Origin: Candidatus Collinsella stercoripullorum
GTDB taxonomy: Bacteria; Actinomycetota; Coriobacteriia; Coriobacteriales; Coriobacteriaceae
DNA length: 64,000 nucleotides
Assembly: GCA_019117005.1 (NCBI GenBank)
Contig: DXAO01000014.1
Location: 62,001 to 126,000, forward strand
Reading direction: 5' to 3'
Shown: piece after piece, positions 20,295 to 47,015 of the stretch
How positions within the stretch are numbered: position 1 is the stretch's first letter
How the letters are laid out: the number at the start of each line of letters is the position of its first letter
Made by a program: the position numbers and the translations under genes
The notes under the pieces: model-generated
What the model was told of the DNA's origin: nothing
What the model saw: the letters and a program-made list of their open reading frames with translations, nothing else
Databases searched by the model: none

Positions 20295-21950
20295 CTACCC
20301 GTCGACGCGCCCGTCCGACGCGGTAACGGGTTTGATTTTCAATATTATCAACAGCCTGGTGGCGGCCGTGCACTTGAACCGGTCGTCGAGGCGAATTCCG
20401 CCAACCCACACAACGGCGCCGCCCGGGGCGGTGCGGACCACCGGCACGCTCTCGCGCTCGGCCACCGGAACGCGCGCGGCACCCAGGATGTCCGATAGCT
20501 TCTTGCTGCGCCCGTGCATGCCGAGCGGGCACATCACATCGCCCGGCGCCGGGGCGTCCACCCAGAGGCGCGCGGTGAGGGCCTCCGCGGGGATGGCGCC
20601 GTCGGGCGACGACTCCGCCAGGCGCTCCAGGTCGCGCTCCGCATATCCCAGGGCGGCCGCATCGATACACGCCGTGAGCAGGTCGGCCTCCGGGGGTGGG
20701 AAAATAGGGACAGGCACTTTTTTCCCGCTCCCGTCGGCGCCTGGGAAAAAAGTGCCTGTCCCTATTTTCCCATCGGCGCAGGAGCGCGCGAAGGCGATCG
20801 GATCCTCGCCGTGCGGGACACGCACGATGCCCGATTCGATCACCGTGTGGTTGGCGAGCGGCATGCGCCCCGGCACCGGCAGCCACCCCGCCGCGAGGCG
20901 CTCCCGGGCGGCCGCGGTGCGCATCGTGAACGTGCCGAACTCCATGCGCGCGTCGACGCCCCCGGGAAGGGTCACCGAGCCCTCCCCCGCCGCCACGCAT
21001 GCGAGCGCGGCCTCGACATGGCGCATCTCCAGCCGCTCCTCGGGTGCGAGGCCGCGGTATGCGAGACGGACCATGCGCCGGGCGATGGCGACCTCGGCCG
21101 AGGCGAGGCGGGCGGCGTCCAACACGATCAGGCCCTCCTGCTCGTGCCTCACGCAGGCGCGCAGCGAGCGGGCGGCGAGCTGCGACATGAAGGCGTCCTC
21201 CTCGCCCAGGATGTCGCAGGTGGCGCCGATGGCGCGCTCGAGGTTGCCGTTGCGCTCCGTCGCCACCGGGACCACGCGGTGGCGGATGAAGTTGCGCAGG
21301 TAGGATACGTCCTCGTTGGACTCGTCCTCACGCCATCCGATCCCCGCCACCTCCAGGAAGCGGCAGAGCTCCGCATGGCTCATGTCGATGAGGGGGCGGA
21401 CGATGATGTTGCGGCGGCGCGGGATGCTCGAGAGCCCCGCGGGGCCGGAGCCCTTGATGGCGTTCATGAAGAAGGTCTCCACCCGGTCGCTCGCCGTATG
21501 GGCCGTCAGGATCCGCGCCGCGGAGCGCGGGGCGCCGGTCTGCTCGCACAGCTCGCGCACATAGCGGCGGGCGGCGGCGTAGCGCACCTCGCGGGCGGCC
21601 GCCTCCAGGTTCTTCCCGGACAGATCGGTGAACGACGCGTGCTCGACGCACAGCGGCAGCCCGTAGCGGGCGCACAGCTCGCGCACGAAGCGCTCGTCGC
21701 CGTCGGATGCCTCCCCGCGCAGATGGTGGTTGACGTGGAGCACATGAAGGCGCTCGCGGGCGATGCGGGAGGGCCCGCGGCCGTCCCGGAGGTCGAGCTT
21801 GGATGCGCATGCCATCACGAGGAGCGCCGTGGAGTCCGCGCCGCCTGATACCATGAGCACCACGGGAGCCGGCGCCTGCGTGCGCGCCGGGTGCTCCGCG
21901 CGAGCGGGCATCGGGTGCAAGCGGGCGAAATGCTGGGAAACTGTGGGCAT
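20295..21950 (-). CDS. tilS: tRNA(Ile)-lysidine synthase TilS, carrying an in-frame palindrome insertion
   Basis: The protein has 551 aa. It modifies C34 of the minor tRNA-Ile(CAU) with lysine and ATP so that it reads AUA. The PP-loop is VVLMVSGGADSTALLV; HHLRGEASDGDERFV and LTAHTASDRVETFFMN follow, as in the family, and a C-terminal domain ends the protein. ATG 21950 has AAGGAGGTCAC directly upstream; an upstream extension to 22115 has none. Residues about 393-418 (KIGTGTFFPGADGSGKKVPV...) are encoded by a perfect 30-bp inverted repeat (20697-20772) and do not look like TilS, so a repeat has been inserted while keeping the frame. It is first gene of the tilS-hpt-ftsH operon. Confidence 0.93.
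   Translation of the reverse strand: MPTVSQHFARLHPMPARAEHPARTQAPAPVVLMVSGGADSTALLVMACASKLDLRDGRGPSRIARERLHVLHVNHHLRGEASDGDERFVRELCARYGLPLCVEHASFTDLSGKNLEAAAREVRYAAARRYVRELCEQTGAPRSAARILTAHTASDRVETFFMNAIKGSGPAGLSSIPRRRNIIVRPLIDMSHAELCRFLEVAGIGWREDESNEDVSYLRNFIRHRVVPVATERNGNLERAIGATCDILGEEDAFMSQLAARSLRACVRHEQEGLIVLDAARLASAEVAIARRMVRLAYRGLAPEERLEMRHVEAALACVAAGEGSVTLPGGVDARMEFGTFTMRTAAARERLAAGWLPVPGRMPLANHTVIESGIVRVPHGEDPIAFARSCADGKIGTGTFFPGADGSGKKVPVPIFPPPEADLLTACIDAAALGYAERDLERLAESSPDGAIPAEALTARLWVDAPAPGDVMCPLGMHGRSKKLSDILGAARVPVAERESVPVVRTAPGGAVVWVGGIRLDDRFKCTAATRLLIILKIKPVTASDGRVDG
20697..20772. repeat. perfect 30-bp inverted repeat (REP-like) inside tilS
   Basis: Arm 20697-20726 begins tgggaaaatagggacaggca and is the exact reverse complement of 20743-20772; the loop is 16 nt. 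Base composition (A/T runs) differs sharply from the surrounding GC-rich gene. The repeat is read in frame within tilS. Confidence 0.95.
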
Positions 21951-22210
21951 GTGACCTCCTTGGTACCGCACCATTGTATCCGTTGGACCGCGCTCCAAGT
22001 CGCCTGCCCGCGGGCTCGGCGGCGGATAACGTGAAGGAGGGGCCGTCCCCGCCGTCATGATGACGGGGCGGAACAGCCCGCGTGTCATGCGCGGCGGGAG
22101 GACGCCCCGTGCCATACGCGGCGGCGGGGCCGTTCATGGCGCAGGGCCGCCCGTCCGCCACCATATCCGCCGCCGCCTGCCACGACCGATGGAAGCGAGG
22201 GTTTCACCAT

Positions 22211-27493: not shown

Positions 27494-27713
27494 ACGTAGC
27501 ACCTTTCCTCTACCGTATGAACCTTCCGGAACCCGCATGCCCGCGGGCGGCGCGCATAAGGCGCAGCTACTGGAATCTTACGTCATTTGGGTAAAGTCCG
27601 GCACATCGCACCGCCCGATGGACGATTTGTCCGGTAGATGCCAGGAGGGGGTCGGATCTGAGACGACCCCCTCTGGGGCACCCACCCGCCTCACGTGCGG
27701 GGCGAAGATTCCT

Positions 27714-27875
27714 TCCGAATCCACCGGGGCAGCGGTCCCTTCCGAATCCAGCACGGCGACGCCTGCTTCTGAATCGAGCGCGGCTGCGGCTCCTTCCAAA
27801 TCGAGTGCGGCGACGTCCGATTCCGAATCCATCATCAGGGCGTCATCTGAATCTTTCAGGGGCGATATTCGAATC
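27714..27875. repeat. 27-bp minisatellite with TCCGAATC core
   Basis: The core TCCGAATC (or TCTGAATC, TCCAAATC) begins at 27714, 27741, 27768, 27795 and 27822, exactly 27 bp apart, then at 27846 and 27868 with looser spacing. On the minus strand this would read as nine-residue units (DSEGTAAPV-like), but that frame has no ribosome binding site. Confidence 0.8.
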
Positions 27876-28223
27876 TGGTTCGCATCGGGAGCCGATTTCA
27901 CGACGCGGTGGGCGATGAACCGGAATGCATCCGCCCTCCGAATCCGCGCGCGATGACGGGAGGGGAGAGGTTCATATCTTGATCTTGTTTCCGCTGGCTG
28001 TTCGGTTGATTCGCTTCACCTGAATGATTCCACATCCGATTCTGAATTCGCGTCGAGACGACGTCAGCGCGATTGAGTTACGAAGCATCCAACACATCGA
28101 CTGCACCATTCACCATTTCACGTCTGATGCAGTCGAGGACGCGGGTGCACTTGCCACACGACTCCCGCGCCGGGAAGACGCCCTGCCGCGCGCGGTCGGG
28201 TAGCCCGTCGCCCTGCAAGCTGG

Positions 28224-28422
28224 GTGAAACAAAGGCGTCCATGGACGCGATGATCTCGCTGAGAACAGCTCTCAGCAAAACAATGGCGTCCATGCACGCC
28301 AATGTTTCACCCGGGCTTTTTCACCGCAAACGAAGTGAAACAAATGCGTCCATGGACGCGATAATCTCGCTGGGTACAGCTCTCAGCGAGACAAAGGTGT
28401 GCATGCACACCTTTGTCTCGCT
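28224..28422. repeat. two tandem palindromic elements with a 38-bp perfect palindrome
   Basis: Two units start with GTGAAACAAAnGCGTCCATG at 28224 and 28335, 111 bp apart. Each contains the palindrome GCGTCCATGGACGC and a CTCGCTG...CAGCTCTCAG hairpin. The first ends TGTTTCAC, mirroring its start; the second ends in 28385-28422, a perfect 38-bp palindrome centred on TGCA|TGCA. The units can form extended cruciforms. Confidence 0.85.
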
Positions 28423-29207
28423 TCGCAGTCATCCCCATAGCCGTCCTCAGGACGAGGCAACCGCGTTCATAGACGTCCTCGACAGATTCGGACTCGGCAC
28501 ACAGAGGATCGGACCGATACGGATGAATCGGTACTCAGATGGGGTTGGTTCGGTAGGCTTGAATCGGTTCCGACGGAATCGGTCGCGTATCGAAGCCCAT
28601 CGTCGCTTGAATCGTTCGCCATCGCATGCGAGCACTCATCGACTCGTTCGCCGCATCGGACAAGACGGCTCCACGACTCGATAACGGCCGACTCGATCCA
28701 TTCGCGTCAGGTCTCACCAACGGGCCGACCCCGAATGAACCATCAATGGGAGCACCGTGCGGAGCGCTCGCCGCAATCGACCCGCACATCCGGTCCGTTG
28801 CGGCTTCCGCAGGCGGTTCTCTACCGAACGCAGCTGAACTCTTCCATCTCCTACCTCGAGGGACGCAGTCGTCCTGCACACCCAGCCGAACCCCGTCCGA
28901 CTCTTTTTGGGTCGATCCTGCTTCGAATCGCACATCGCATCTCAAACCGATCCGCAATCTCGCACGCTGCGATCCACACAGAGCCATCGAAGCGTACCAA
29001 TGGCAGGGGATGCGACCCAACGAACGAATCGACGCATCGATGCGTCCTCCGAAACGGCTACCGAACCCCGGACTCGGTCCATTCGAATCCCCGCCGTCTC
29101 CGGTTGCACCAAATGATGCGAAGGTGGGGGAGAGCGGGGTATAATCGACCGAACGACCGAACCTATGACGCAGTCCCAACCGACCCAGATTACGACGAGG
29201 TGATCGC

Positions 29208-29714
29208 ATGCCGACAATCAAGGAGATCGCAGACGCTACCGGACGGGGAAAATCGACGGTCACCCGCGCGGTCAACGAGCTCGGCCTCCGTGAGAACGGC
29301 CATGCGAAGCCGGACGGACCGCGCGGCGCCCTGATCATCGATGCGGAGGGCGCTTCGATGCTCGCTGACTTCCTCACCAAGGGAACCGAGTCGAAGACCG
29401 CTCCGGAGTCGGATACGGAGACCGCCTCCCAGCCCCAGATCGATATCGAGGCGATCGTATCGGTCTACCGGGAGAGGATCGATGACCTCAAGGCTCAGAT
29501 CGAGAGCCTCAACGACCAGCTCTCCATGAAGGACGCCCAGATCAAGGAGCTCAACATCGCCTTGGAGAACGCGCAGGGAGCGGCTAAGGAGGCGCAGACC
29601 GAGACGAGGCGCGCACACGACCGCGTCGTCCTCATGGCGAGTGCGGGCGTCTGGGAGCGTCTGACGGGCTTCAAGGGCCTGTTGGGCCCTGCGAGCGATG
29701 TAGACGGTCAATAA
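29208..29714 (+). CDS. HTH DNA-binding protein with long coiled coil (DUF536/RacA-like layout)
   Basis: The protein has 168 aa. Residues 1-30 (MPTIKEIADATGRGKSTVTR...) form a helix-turn-helix; then a polar linker and a long coiled coil (about 75-145, IVSVYRERIDDLKAQIESLN and following). This layout occurs in plasmid-type DUF536 proteins and in chromosome-anchoring or partition proteins, but no family is certain. ATG 29208 follows GAGGTGATCGC, and TATAAT at 29140 gives a promoter. It lies between the repeat island and a duplicated tRNA end, which suggests it may have come with an integrated element. Confidence 0.8.
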   Translation: MPTIKEIADATGRGKSTVTRAVNELGLRENGHAKPDGPRGALIIDAEGASMLADFLTKGTESKTAPESDTETASQPQIDIEAIVSVYRERIDDLKAQIESLNDQLSMKDAQIKELNIALENAQGAAKEAQTETRRAHDRVVLMASAGVWERLTGFKGLLGPASDVDGQ

Positions 29715-39492: not shown

Positions 39493-41262
39493 TCACGACT
39501 TGATGAGGATGACGTTCCGGAGCTGCTGGAGCTCCTCTCCGAACCGCGCGTCCTCCTTCATCTTCTTCTCGACCACCTCGATGCTGTGGATCGCCGTGGT
39601 GTGGTTGCGGCCGAAGGCCTCGCCCACCGCCACCAGGGACAGCTCGCACATGCTGTTGGCGAGGTAGATGGCGACGTGGCGCGGGAAGGCGATGTTCTTG
39701 GTGCGCTTGCGGCTGATCATGTCCTCATGGCTCACGTGGTAGAACTCCTCCACGACGCCCTGCACGGTGTCGATGCGGACCTTCTTGCGCGCCGTGTCGA
39801 AGTACTCGTCGGCGATCGCGTCGATATCGGTCGCCGTGAGCTCGCCTCCTGCCTGCTCCTTCTCGTAGGAGAGGCCCGCGCAGCGCTCGCAGAAGCTCTC
39901 GAGCTCGCGGATGTTGTTGCCCGAGATGTCCGCCATATGGCGCAGGTGGTCGTCCGTGAGGTGGCCCTCCTCGAGCGCGATCCCGTCGAGGATCGAGATG
40001 CCGTCGGCATGCGGGGTCTCCGCCGCGTTCGCGCAGATGGTGTTCTCGTAGTAGTACTTGAGGATGCGGTACTTGGTCTCGAAGCTCGGCTCGGAGACCA
40101 GGCAGAGCATGCCGGAGTTGAAGCGGCTCGTGAGGCGCTCGTCCATCTCCAGCTTCTTGGGGGCGCGGTCCGAGGCGATGACGATCTTCTTGTTCTCGCG
40201 GATGAACTCGTCTACCAGCTGGAAGAAGAATTCGATGGACGCCTGGCGCCCGATGATGTTCTGGATGTCGTCGATGATCAGCACGTCCGCGTTGCGGTAC
40301 TCGCGCATGATCGGCTCGCCCGGTCCGCGCTGCGACCCGAGGTCGCGCATGTAGTCGTCGAGGTACGCCTGGCTGTTCGCGTACTTGACGCGGATGTAGG
40401 GCTTCTCGCTCGCCAGGTAGTTCTTGATGGCGAAGAGCAGGTGCGTCTTCCCGAGCCCCGAGTTGCCGTATATGAACAGGCTCGTGCATTGCCCCGGCTC
40501 GTCCGCGAACGCCGCGAACCGCGCGGCGGACTGGTAGGCGTGGCGGTTCTCGTCGCCGAGGACGAAGTTTTCGAACGTGAACTTGGCGTTGATGCCCACG
40601 GCGGGGTAGGGTCCGTCCGATCCGTCGGACGTATCGGCCGCGGCCGCCGCGTCGGGTGCAGGCTGCGGGGCGGGCCCCGCCGCGGGCGCCGGCGCCTGCG
40701 CGGCCCCGTCCTCCCGCTTCATGTCCGCCATCATGCGGCGGAACTGGTCGGGCGACATGGTGTTGGTCACGCTCACGCGCCGCGGCCCTCCCTCCGCGGG
40801 CACGGCGAGCGCCGGTCCGCTGTGGTGCGATGCGGTTCCGGGTTCGGTCCGCGGTGCGGTGGAGGCCGCGTGTGCGACGACGGGTCCCATACCGCTTACC
40901 TGGGATGATGCAGTCGGCCTCTCTTCCTCGGTCATCGGCTTGCCCGCCTCGGAGCGCGCTTGGGGCGCGGTCGGCTGAACCGGTTCGGTGCGCGAGGTCG
41001 GGGTCCCCTCGTCGACCTGGGGGACGGTTATGTTGAGGGCGAGCGGGGCGAAGGCGATCTCCTCCAGGTACCGCTCGATCACCGTGCGCTGCTTCACCAG
41101 ATACGAGTAGGCGAACCTGCTCGGCGCCTCGATCGTGAGGGCGTCCTCGGTGAGGTTGGTCGCCCGCGCGCTTGCGAGCATGTTGATAAGCCGCGTGTCG
41201 AGACCGTCGCGCTGGCAGAACGCGATCGCGTCGTCGAGCAGAAGCCGTGCCTCGTTATCCAT
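39493..41262 (-). CDS. dnaA: chromosomal replication initiator protein DnaA
   Basis: The protein has 589 aa and opens the origin after binding DnaA boxes. Domain I (1-75) is followed by a long Ala/Pro-rich linker (about 80-225), then the AAA+ core with Walker A GNSGLGKTHLLFAIKN and Walker B VLIIDDIQNI, and domain IV with the DNA-binding motif AFGRNHTTAIHSIEVV. ATG 41262 follows GAGGTGAACG. It lies 19 bp after a GHKL-ATPase gene and is presumably co-transcribed with it. Confidence 0.97.
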   Translation of the reverse strand: MDNEARLLLDDAIAFCQRDGLDTRLINMLASARATNLTEDALTIEAPSRFAYSYLVKQRTVIERYLEEIAFAPLALNITVPQVDEGTPTSRTEPVQPTAPQARSEAGKPMTEEERPTASSQVSGMGPVVAHAASTAPRTEPGTASHHSGPALAVPAEGGPRRVSVTNTMSPDQFRRMMADMKREDGAAQAPAPAAGPAPQPAPDAAAAADTSDGSDGPYPAVGINAKFTFENFVLGDENRHAYQSAARFAAFADEPGQCTSLFIYGNSGLGKTHLLFAIKNYLASEKPYIRVKYANSQAYLDDYMRDLGSQRGPGEPIMREYRNADVLIIDDIQNIIGRQASIEFFFQLVDEFIRENKKIVIASDRAPKKLEMDERLTSRFNSGMLCLVSEPSFETKYRILKYYYENTICANAAETPHADGISILDGIALEEGHLTDDHLRHMADISGNNIRELESFCERCAGLSYEKEQAGGELTATDIDAIADEYFDTARKKVRIDTVQGVVEEFYHVSHEDMISRKRTKNIAFPRHVAIYLANSMCELSLVAVGEAFGRNHTTAIHSIEVVEKKMKEDARFGEELQQLRNVILIKS

Positions 41263-46940: not shown

Positions 46941-46956
46941 TGTTTCACGTGAAACA
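46941..46956. promoter_or_regulatory. parS: parS site 1 (perfect TGTTTCACGTGAAACA)
   Basis: It matches the consensus ParB-binding 16-mer in full and lies between rsmG and parA. Confidence 0.95.
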
Positions 46957-46972
46957 TAATGATTTCAACATG

Positions 46973-46988
46973 CGTTTCACGTGAAACC
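46973..46988. promoter_or_regulatory. parS: parS site 2 (CGTTTCACGTGAAACC)
   Basis: The 14-bp core GTTTCACGTGAAAC is intact; only the outermost bases differ from consensus. Confidence 0.92.
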
Positions 46989-46999
46989 ATGGTAGAGAG

Positions 47000-47015
47000 T
47001 GTTTCACGTGAAACA
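47000..47015. promoter_or_regulatory. parS: parS site 3 (perfect TGTTTCACGTGAAACA)
   Basis: It is a perfect 16-mer, 49 bp before the parA start; ParB bound here could also repress parAB. Confidence 0.95.

Follow-up and report, generated by a model that had tools for sequence, protein, structure and literature searches.

A species-private family of arrayed 36-bp palindromes in Candidatus Collinsella stercoripullorum: candidate sites for a symmetric DNA-binding protein

An imperfect 36-bp palindrome, GYGARACAAWSGCGTSCATGSACGCSWTTGTYTCRC, occurs in 27 copies at nine loci in the genome of Candidatus Collinsella stercoripullorum, and these copies form a real, dispersed family that is private to this species. 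We propose, with moderate confidence and from patterns of sequence variation, that the arrays are recognition sites for a putative two-fold-symmetric DNA-binding protein, which would have spread once in REP-like fashion and would since have been kept by selection. Phosphoglucomutase relatives in named genomes, the nearest of them 92% identical, likewise place the genome in Collinsella. The genome comprises 2.22 Mb in 59 contigs and is 95.4% complete; the window, which is the whole 64,000-nt stretch under analysis, corresponds to C52:62001-126000.

Four copies of the palindrome occupy window positions 28224-28421 (Table 1). A sequence-only reading of this DNA had described two units 111 bp apart, the second of which closes on a perfect, loop-less 38-bp palindrome, and both features are present. 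The units start at 28224 and 28335, are 82% identical across 94 nt, and each consists of a pair of 36-bp palindromes around a 15-bp spacer; copy 4 with one flanking base per side forms the perfect palindrome at 28385-28422, whose arms (28385-28403 and 28404-28422) match at 100% with the loop absent. Strings that were suggested for counting also recur: with up to two mismatches, the 14-mer GCGTSCATGSACGC is found seven times in the window, where 2.8 matches are expected, and four of the seven lie within the array; GTGAAACAAANGCGTCCATG has 13 strand matches in the whole genome against 0 for the reversed control. Rfam has no match at the array locus, and the known RNA families in the window are two tRNAs only. 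The intergenic stretch at 27501-29000 is rich in GATTC/GAATC, with 10 GAWTC in 27501-28000 compared to 0.7 expected from the window mean, and is flanked by genes for phosphoglucomutase and a helix-turn-helix/coiled-coil protein (29208-29714). Among congeners, this gap holds a similar long stretch in L112, L113 and L117 and a short one in L111 and L114. Four direct repeats of CCTTCCGAATCCA type with a 27-bp step lie at 27701-27835.

Table 1. Parts of the window array (window coordinates) and the nine loci of the family (contig coordinates).
Feature	Position	Strand	Copies	Remarks
Palindrome copy 1, 36-bp imperfect	28224..28259	.		profile score 36.6 bits
15-bp spacer TGAGAACAGCTCTCA	28260..28274	.		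type TGR...YNR
Palindrome copy 2, 36-bp imperfect	28275..28310	.
24-bp gap between two dyads	28311..28334	.		within 111-bp unit period
Palindrome copy 3, 36-bp imperfect	28335..28370	.
15-bp spacer TGGGTACAGCTCTCA	28371..28385	.		last base is first base of 38-bp palindrome
Palindrome copy 4, 36-bp	28386..28421	.		sole perfect one of 27
Locus	C2:1237		3
Locus	C5:26857		2	C5:26857-26943
Locus	C5:41814		4
Locus	C6:91570		2
Locus	C15:13181		2
Locus	C52:60219		3
Locus	C52:90224		4	window 28224
Locus	C52:183771		1	solitary
Locus	C58:26205		6

A genome-wide search with the 26-bp core, allowing up to three mismatches, defined the 27 palindromes and returned nothing for the reversed control. A profile built from these copies gave 54 strand matches, which fall on the identical 27 places and score between 43.5 and 27.0 bits. 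The boundary is sharp: in 97 other genomes, no candidate among the best 70 scored per genome exceeded 18.8 bits, a depth at which weak remnants could escape. With up to three mismatches, the 36-mer had no match in 57 other relatives, and the 26-mer had none in 42 other congeners and none in 395 further genomes from the class (these sets overlap); the profile had no match at the 44 loci covered of 68 named phosphoglucomutase loci. Plasmids and phages searched by blastn, viral contigs scanned with an exact 20-mer and a collection of 84,980 species scanned with an exact 25-mer (records of this genome possibly left out) likewise gave no match; of the 27 own copies, the 20-mer pattern fits just 11 and the 25-mer pattern 9, so that these scans would miss single divergent copies. 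A phage or plasmid origin was rejected on the blastn and viral 20-mer results. Because copies are present in this genome and none occur in the congener, class, phage, plasmid and viral sequences searched, the family is private to the species, and the copies that had been sought in related genomes were not found. Literature searches on palindromic repeats, repetitive extragenic palindromic sequences and MITEs in Collinsella or Coriobacteriia turned up no such family by title or abstract.

Within the site, variation is confined to a few two-state positions that alternate with strict ones. Of the strict positions, 4 and 6 show no change in 54 half-sites and 3, 12, 14, 15 and 17 one exception each; positions 2, 5, 10, 11 and 16 are strongly variable, mostly between two states. 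Complementary transversions account for 21/22 minority bases at position 10, 17/18 at position 16 and 15/21 at position 11, and transitions account for all changes at positions 2 (16), 13 (8) and 18 (8) and for 25/27 at position 5. Neighbouring positions 2-5 and 10-11 are correlated, and mean identity between copies is 28 of 36. Two halves resemble each other no more within a palindrome than across copies: symmetric matches number 367 compared to 376 ± 6 when halves are re-paired, standard pairs make up 80.6% of cells versus 82.5% shuffled, and double changes at paired positions number 9 versus 17.2 shuffled. The two halves thus vary independently and without compensation, and therefore neither cruciform nor RNA hairpin pairing is preserved. 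All copies other than the perfect one have 3 to 7 mismatched pairs of 18. Halves of different copies paired at random are perfect in 0.57% of cases, which gives about 0.15 perfect copies expected in 27, so the 38-bp palindrome is a chance extreme and unremarkable within the family. The sequence-only interpretation as a dispersed palindromic repeat family or a binding array for a dimeric protein has held up, with a pattern of change that favours a symmetric protein on double-stranded DNA; its stress on cruciforms and on the perfect palindrome has not.

Gaps between neighbours are exactly 15 bp in 14 of 18 cases (the remainder are 13, 24, 36 and 12 bp), and neighbouring palindromes are mostly 51 bp apart. 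Within the spacer, position 3 is a purine in 13 of 14, and position 13 is a pyrimidine and position 15 a purine in all 14. The middle nine bases are mostly dissimilar, with identity slightly above chance (0.365 versus 0.300 shuffled), which fits copying of whole dyads. Neighbouring palindromes compared directly are not clearly more alike than others (404 versus 393 ± 6.6 shuffled), and the 14 dyads compared in inverted orientation have no excess identity (387 versus 394 shuffled). The 87-nt long hairpin of a dyad was rejected as the unit on this absence of extra likeness by inversion.

Strict and two-state positions, independent halves and fixed spacing are expected of sites that a symmetric protein reads in double-stranded DNA. 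Each 36-bp palindrome would be one such site, with each subunit of the putative protein reading an 18- to 21-bp half-site, and a 51-bp step, close to five helical turns, would let neighbouring sites load several dimers on one DNA face. Exchange of A with T, or of G with C, hardly alters the minor groove; a minor-groove-reading protein could tolerate such changes, and ordinary drift would not be expected to give mainly these. Past copying is required because the family occupies nine unrelated places. Copies may have spread to intergenic places in this lineage, as REP-like elements do, and may afterwards have been retained by selection on recognition. Against reading the palindromes as binding sites, the copies share descent, so that a few old variants shuffled by conversion could likewise yield two-state positions; the correlation of neighbouring positions and the slight likeness of the spacers weigh on the same side, and one copy (C52:183771) stands alone.

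Eight loci lie between predicted genes and one lies within gene remnants; by nearest predicted genes, six occupy tandem gaps, two divergent and one convergent. Array neighbours include acpP, dnaX, prfA and genes for phosphoglucomutase, a peptidase, a macro-domain protein, a chloride channel and a protein kinase. Binding could bear on nucleoid organisation, local regulation or recombination; the flanking genes are unrelated and have no pathway in common, on which basis a DNA-organising role for the arrays is our guess. Our own reading of the translations gave the names dnaX, phosphoglucomutase, aldo-keto reductase, alcohol dehydrogenase, aspS and polA. The array at C5:26857-26943 (L027:8286-10000) is flanked by remnants of aldo-keto reductase and iron alcohol dehydrogenase genes and continues the reading frame of the truncated aldo-keto reductase remnant. 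One array lies between acpP and an ABC transporter gene, and congeners that keep this gene order (G015, G008, G034, G016 and G021) lack it in the orthologous gap. On either side of the acpP array the genes follow the order found in congeners, so no large rearrangement is seen there, and the flanks are too diverged to locate the insertion point by empty-site comparison. Other inverted repeats are present in this gap in G015, G034 and G021; upstream of acpP in L100, L103 and L105, GACAAGTTTGWACCYGGC-type inverted repeats occur where this genome has the array. Target duplications, for which the sequence-only reading had suggested a check, were not seen at any of the nine arrays; the only matches there are short, 4-7 nt, and attributable to chance.

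A lineage-specific chromosome-organising site is a distinctly unlikely form of such a role, in which near-origin arrays with everted, half-parS-like ends (GYGARACA) would be read by a putative diverged ParB-like or other two-fold-symmetric nucleoid protein that arose in one Collinsella species. The palindrome ends fit GYGARACA and are compatible with the parS half GTGAAACA, whereas the family halves point outward over a 15-bp gap, the site is 36 bp compared to 16 bp for parS, and GTGAAACA is read by just 9 of 54 family halves. Three of the nine loci (8 of 27 copies) are on C52, the 193-kb contig that carries dnaA, and their distances to this gene are 12, 42 and 81 kb (binomial P of 0.037, counted by locus). 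This skew toward the origin is weak because dnaX, aspS and polA map far from dnaA in congeners: in single-contig congeners, dnaX, an array neighbour, is about 180-230 kb away, aspS roughly 400-490 kb and polA >900 kb. The mapping used these three genes (prfA is on the same contig as dnaA) and left out the C5 loci and the C2 locus, where best matches are 40-46% identical and not clearly orthologous. By the parS consensus (the ParB site), the window itself has three parS sites inside 75 bp (46941-47015), two of them exact (TGTTTCACGTGAAACA) and the third with two mismatches, about 6 kb from dnaA (39493-41262, - strand).

The main rival to the binding-site reading is that the family consists of untagged REP-like or MITE-like mobile repeats, that is, dyads moved in trans by a transposase now lost or unrecognised and without host function; we hold this to be possible, though doubtful. 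Paired palindromes of 20-40 bp in intergenic DNA are REP anatomy as set out in PMC3733652 (compare PMC3116915 and PMC8040213). The family has this look: it is 36 bp long, dispersed and extragenic, and its presence at nine unrelated places, the slight likeness of its spacers and the absence of the array from the orthologous acpP gap of congeners would all suit mobility. The genome also has two RAYT-like Y1 transposase genes (L089:2820-3704 and L090:2557-3441). Both, however, stand beside other palindromes such as GCGGGAAAATAGTGACAGGCACTTTTTTCCCGC, and the best match to the 36-mer there has 14 mismatches; a RAYT-cognate REP was rejected on these other palindromes. Of the 54 palindrome ends, none has GTAG within 8 nt, one has GGAG and seven have CGTC (1.8 by shuffling), so that no constant terminal tag exists, and paired units are not inverted dimers. 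Nor do half-decayed copies adjoin the arrays, since the next-best stretches there have at least 12 mismatches of 36; 26 of the 27 copies sit in arrays. REP, BIME and REPIN elements of the GTAG and CGTC superfamilies, with their RAYT transposases, provide the closest comparison, being short palindromes, paired or clustered, intergenic and often species-specific, with dyads foldable as one long hairpin; the family differs by its missing tag, its absence beside the RAYT genes, its uncompensated halves, a fixed 15-bp spacer, the lack of decayed copies, one single copy and a total of 27 copies only. The window has a tRNA-lysidine synthetase-like gene (20295-22115) in which the stretch KKVPVPIFPP resembles, by eye, a translated RAYT-type REP sequence that was inserted in frame. 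Neisserial dRS3/NIME arrays, likened here by description, are also arrays of short inverted repeats with differing intervening sequence, whereas the family spacers are 15 bp and mostly fixed and no phage or integrase link was found. Palindromic elements of Rickettsia (RPE) are open in frame, as is the one family array that continues a truncated gene frame, but family copies are almost all intergenic and their codon usage is not coding-like. RPE and dRS3, the latter as CGTC-1, are named in PMC3733652.

Among functional alternatives to a binding site, recombination sites of att, res or hix type for a serine or tyrosine recombinase appear unlikely. Exchange at the CATG centre would shuffle half-sites, in line with the independent halves, and the array between aldo-keto reductase and alcohol dehydrogenase remnants would also suit recombination. 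In their dimensions, arrayed symmetric sites of 36 bp with halves of 18 bp fit recombinase sites. Conserved gene order around the acpP array argues against this, as does the absence of a recombinase among the predicted genes adjoining the arrays, families having been searched for some of them. Selection on pairing itself, as in terminators, mRNA stabilisers or cruciforms, is very unlikely: the window array folds strongly as RNA (z -10.9 versus shuffles; 0/200 shuffles equally good) and there are three terminator-like matches on the - strand compared to 1.5 expected, but the compensating stem changes of a structured RNA or intrinsic terminator are missing, double changes being fewer than shuffled, and 12-17 of 27 copies have non-standard pairing at four of 16 pairs (5-32, 10-27, 11-26 and 16-21). 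Hairpin or cruciform selection was rejected on this lack of covariation, and the arrays occur in tandem, divergent and convergent gaps alike. In Collinsella stercoris (L191:1302-1437), three hairpins lie 52 bp apart and two share a GAGAGTT-type centre; they were rejected as a related array, having differing pairing arms and T-rich tails, and we read them as terminator-like and unrelated. A translated 17-residue repeat, (S/G)ETx(A/V)(S/C)M(H/D)AxVSLxxx(L), readable on both strands, is extremely unlikely. Positions 2, 5, 8, 11, 26, 29, 32 and 35 are third codon positions in one frame, nearly all matches are open on both strands (one has a stop), gaps of 15, 12, 24 and 36 bp preserve the frame (one 13-bp gap breaks it), and the frame of a truncated gene runs on into one array. 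Gene-like codon usage and silent variation are nevertheless not seen: codon scores are -2.7 and -3.2 per 11 codons, GC3 is 71% versus 93% in five genes, and fourfold site 14 is nearly fixed (53/54 half-sites). A peptide search of 117 other genomes gave nothing below E 0.08 and Pfam gave no match; the negative codon score and the lack of related peptides led to rejection of the translated repeat. CRISPR arrays likewise combine repeats near 36 bp in length with spacers that differ, whereas the family repeats are palindromic over their full length and variable, not near-identical, and their spacers are 15 bp compared to about 25-40 bp; in the gene list, no cas gene was noticed close to the arrays.

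Most bacterial palindromic repeats are classed as RAYT-moved REPs or as hairpins. The present family is REP-like in look and lacks the tag, the RAYT neighbour and the inverted dimers of REPs; its variation points instead to recognition of double-stranded DNA with a fixed geometry. If the putative binder exists, it would represent a new sequence-specific system of single-species origin, whose site preferences would already be supplied by the 27 natural variants.
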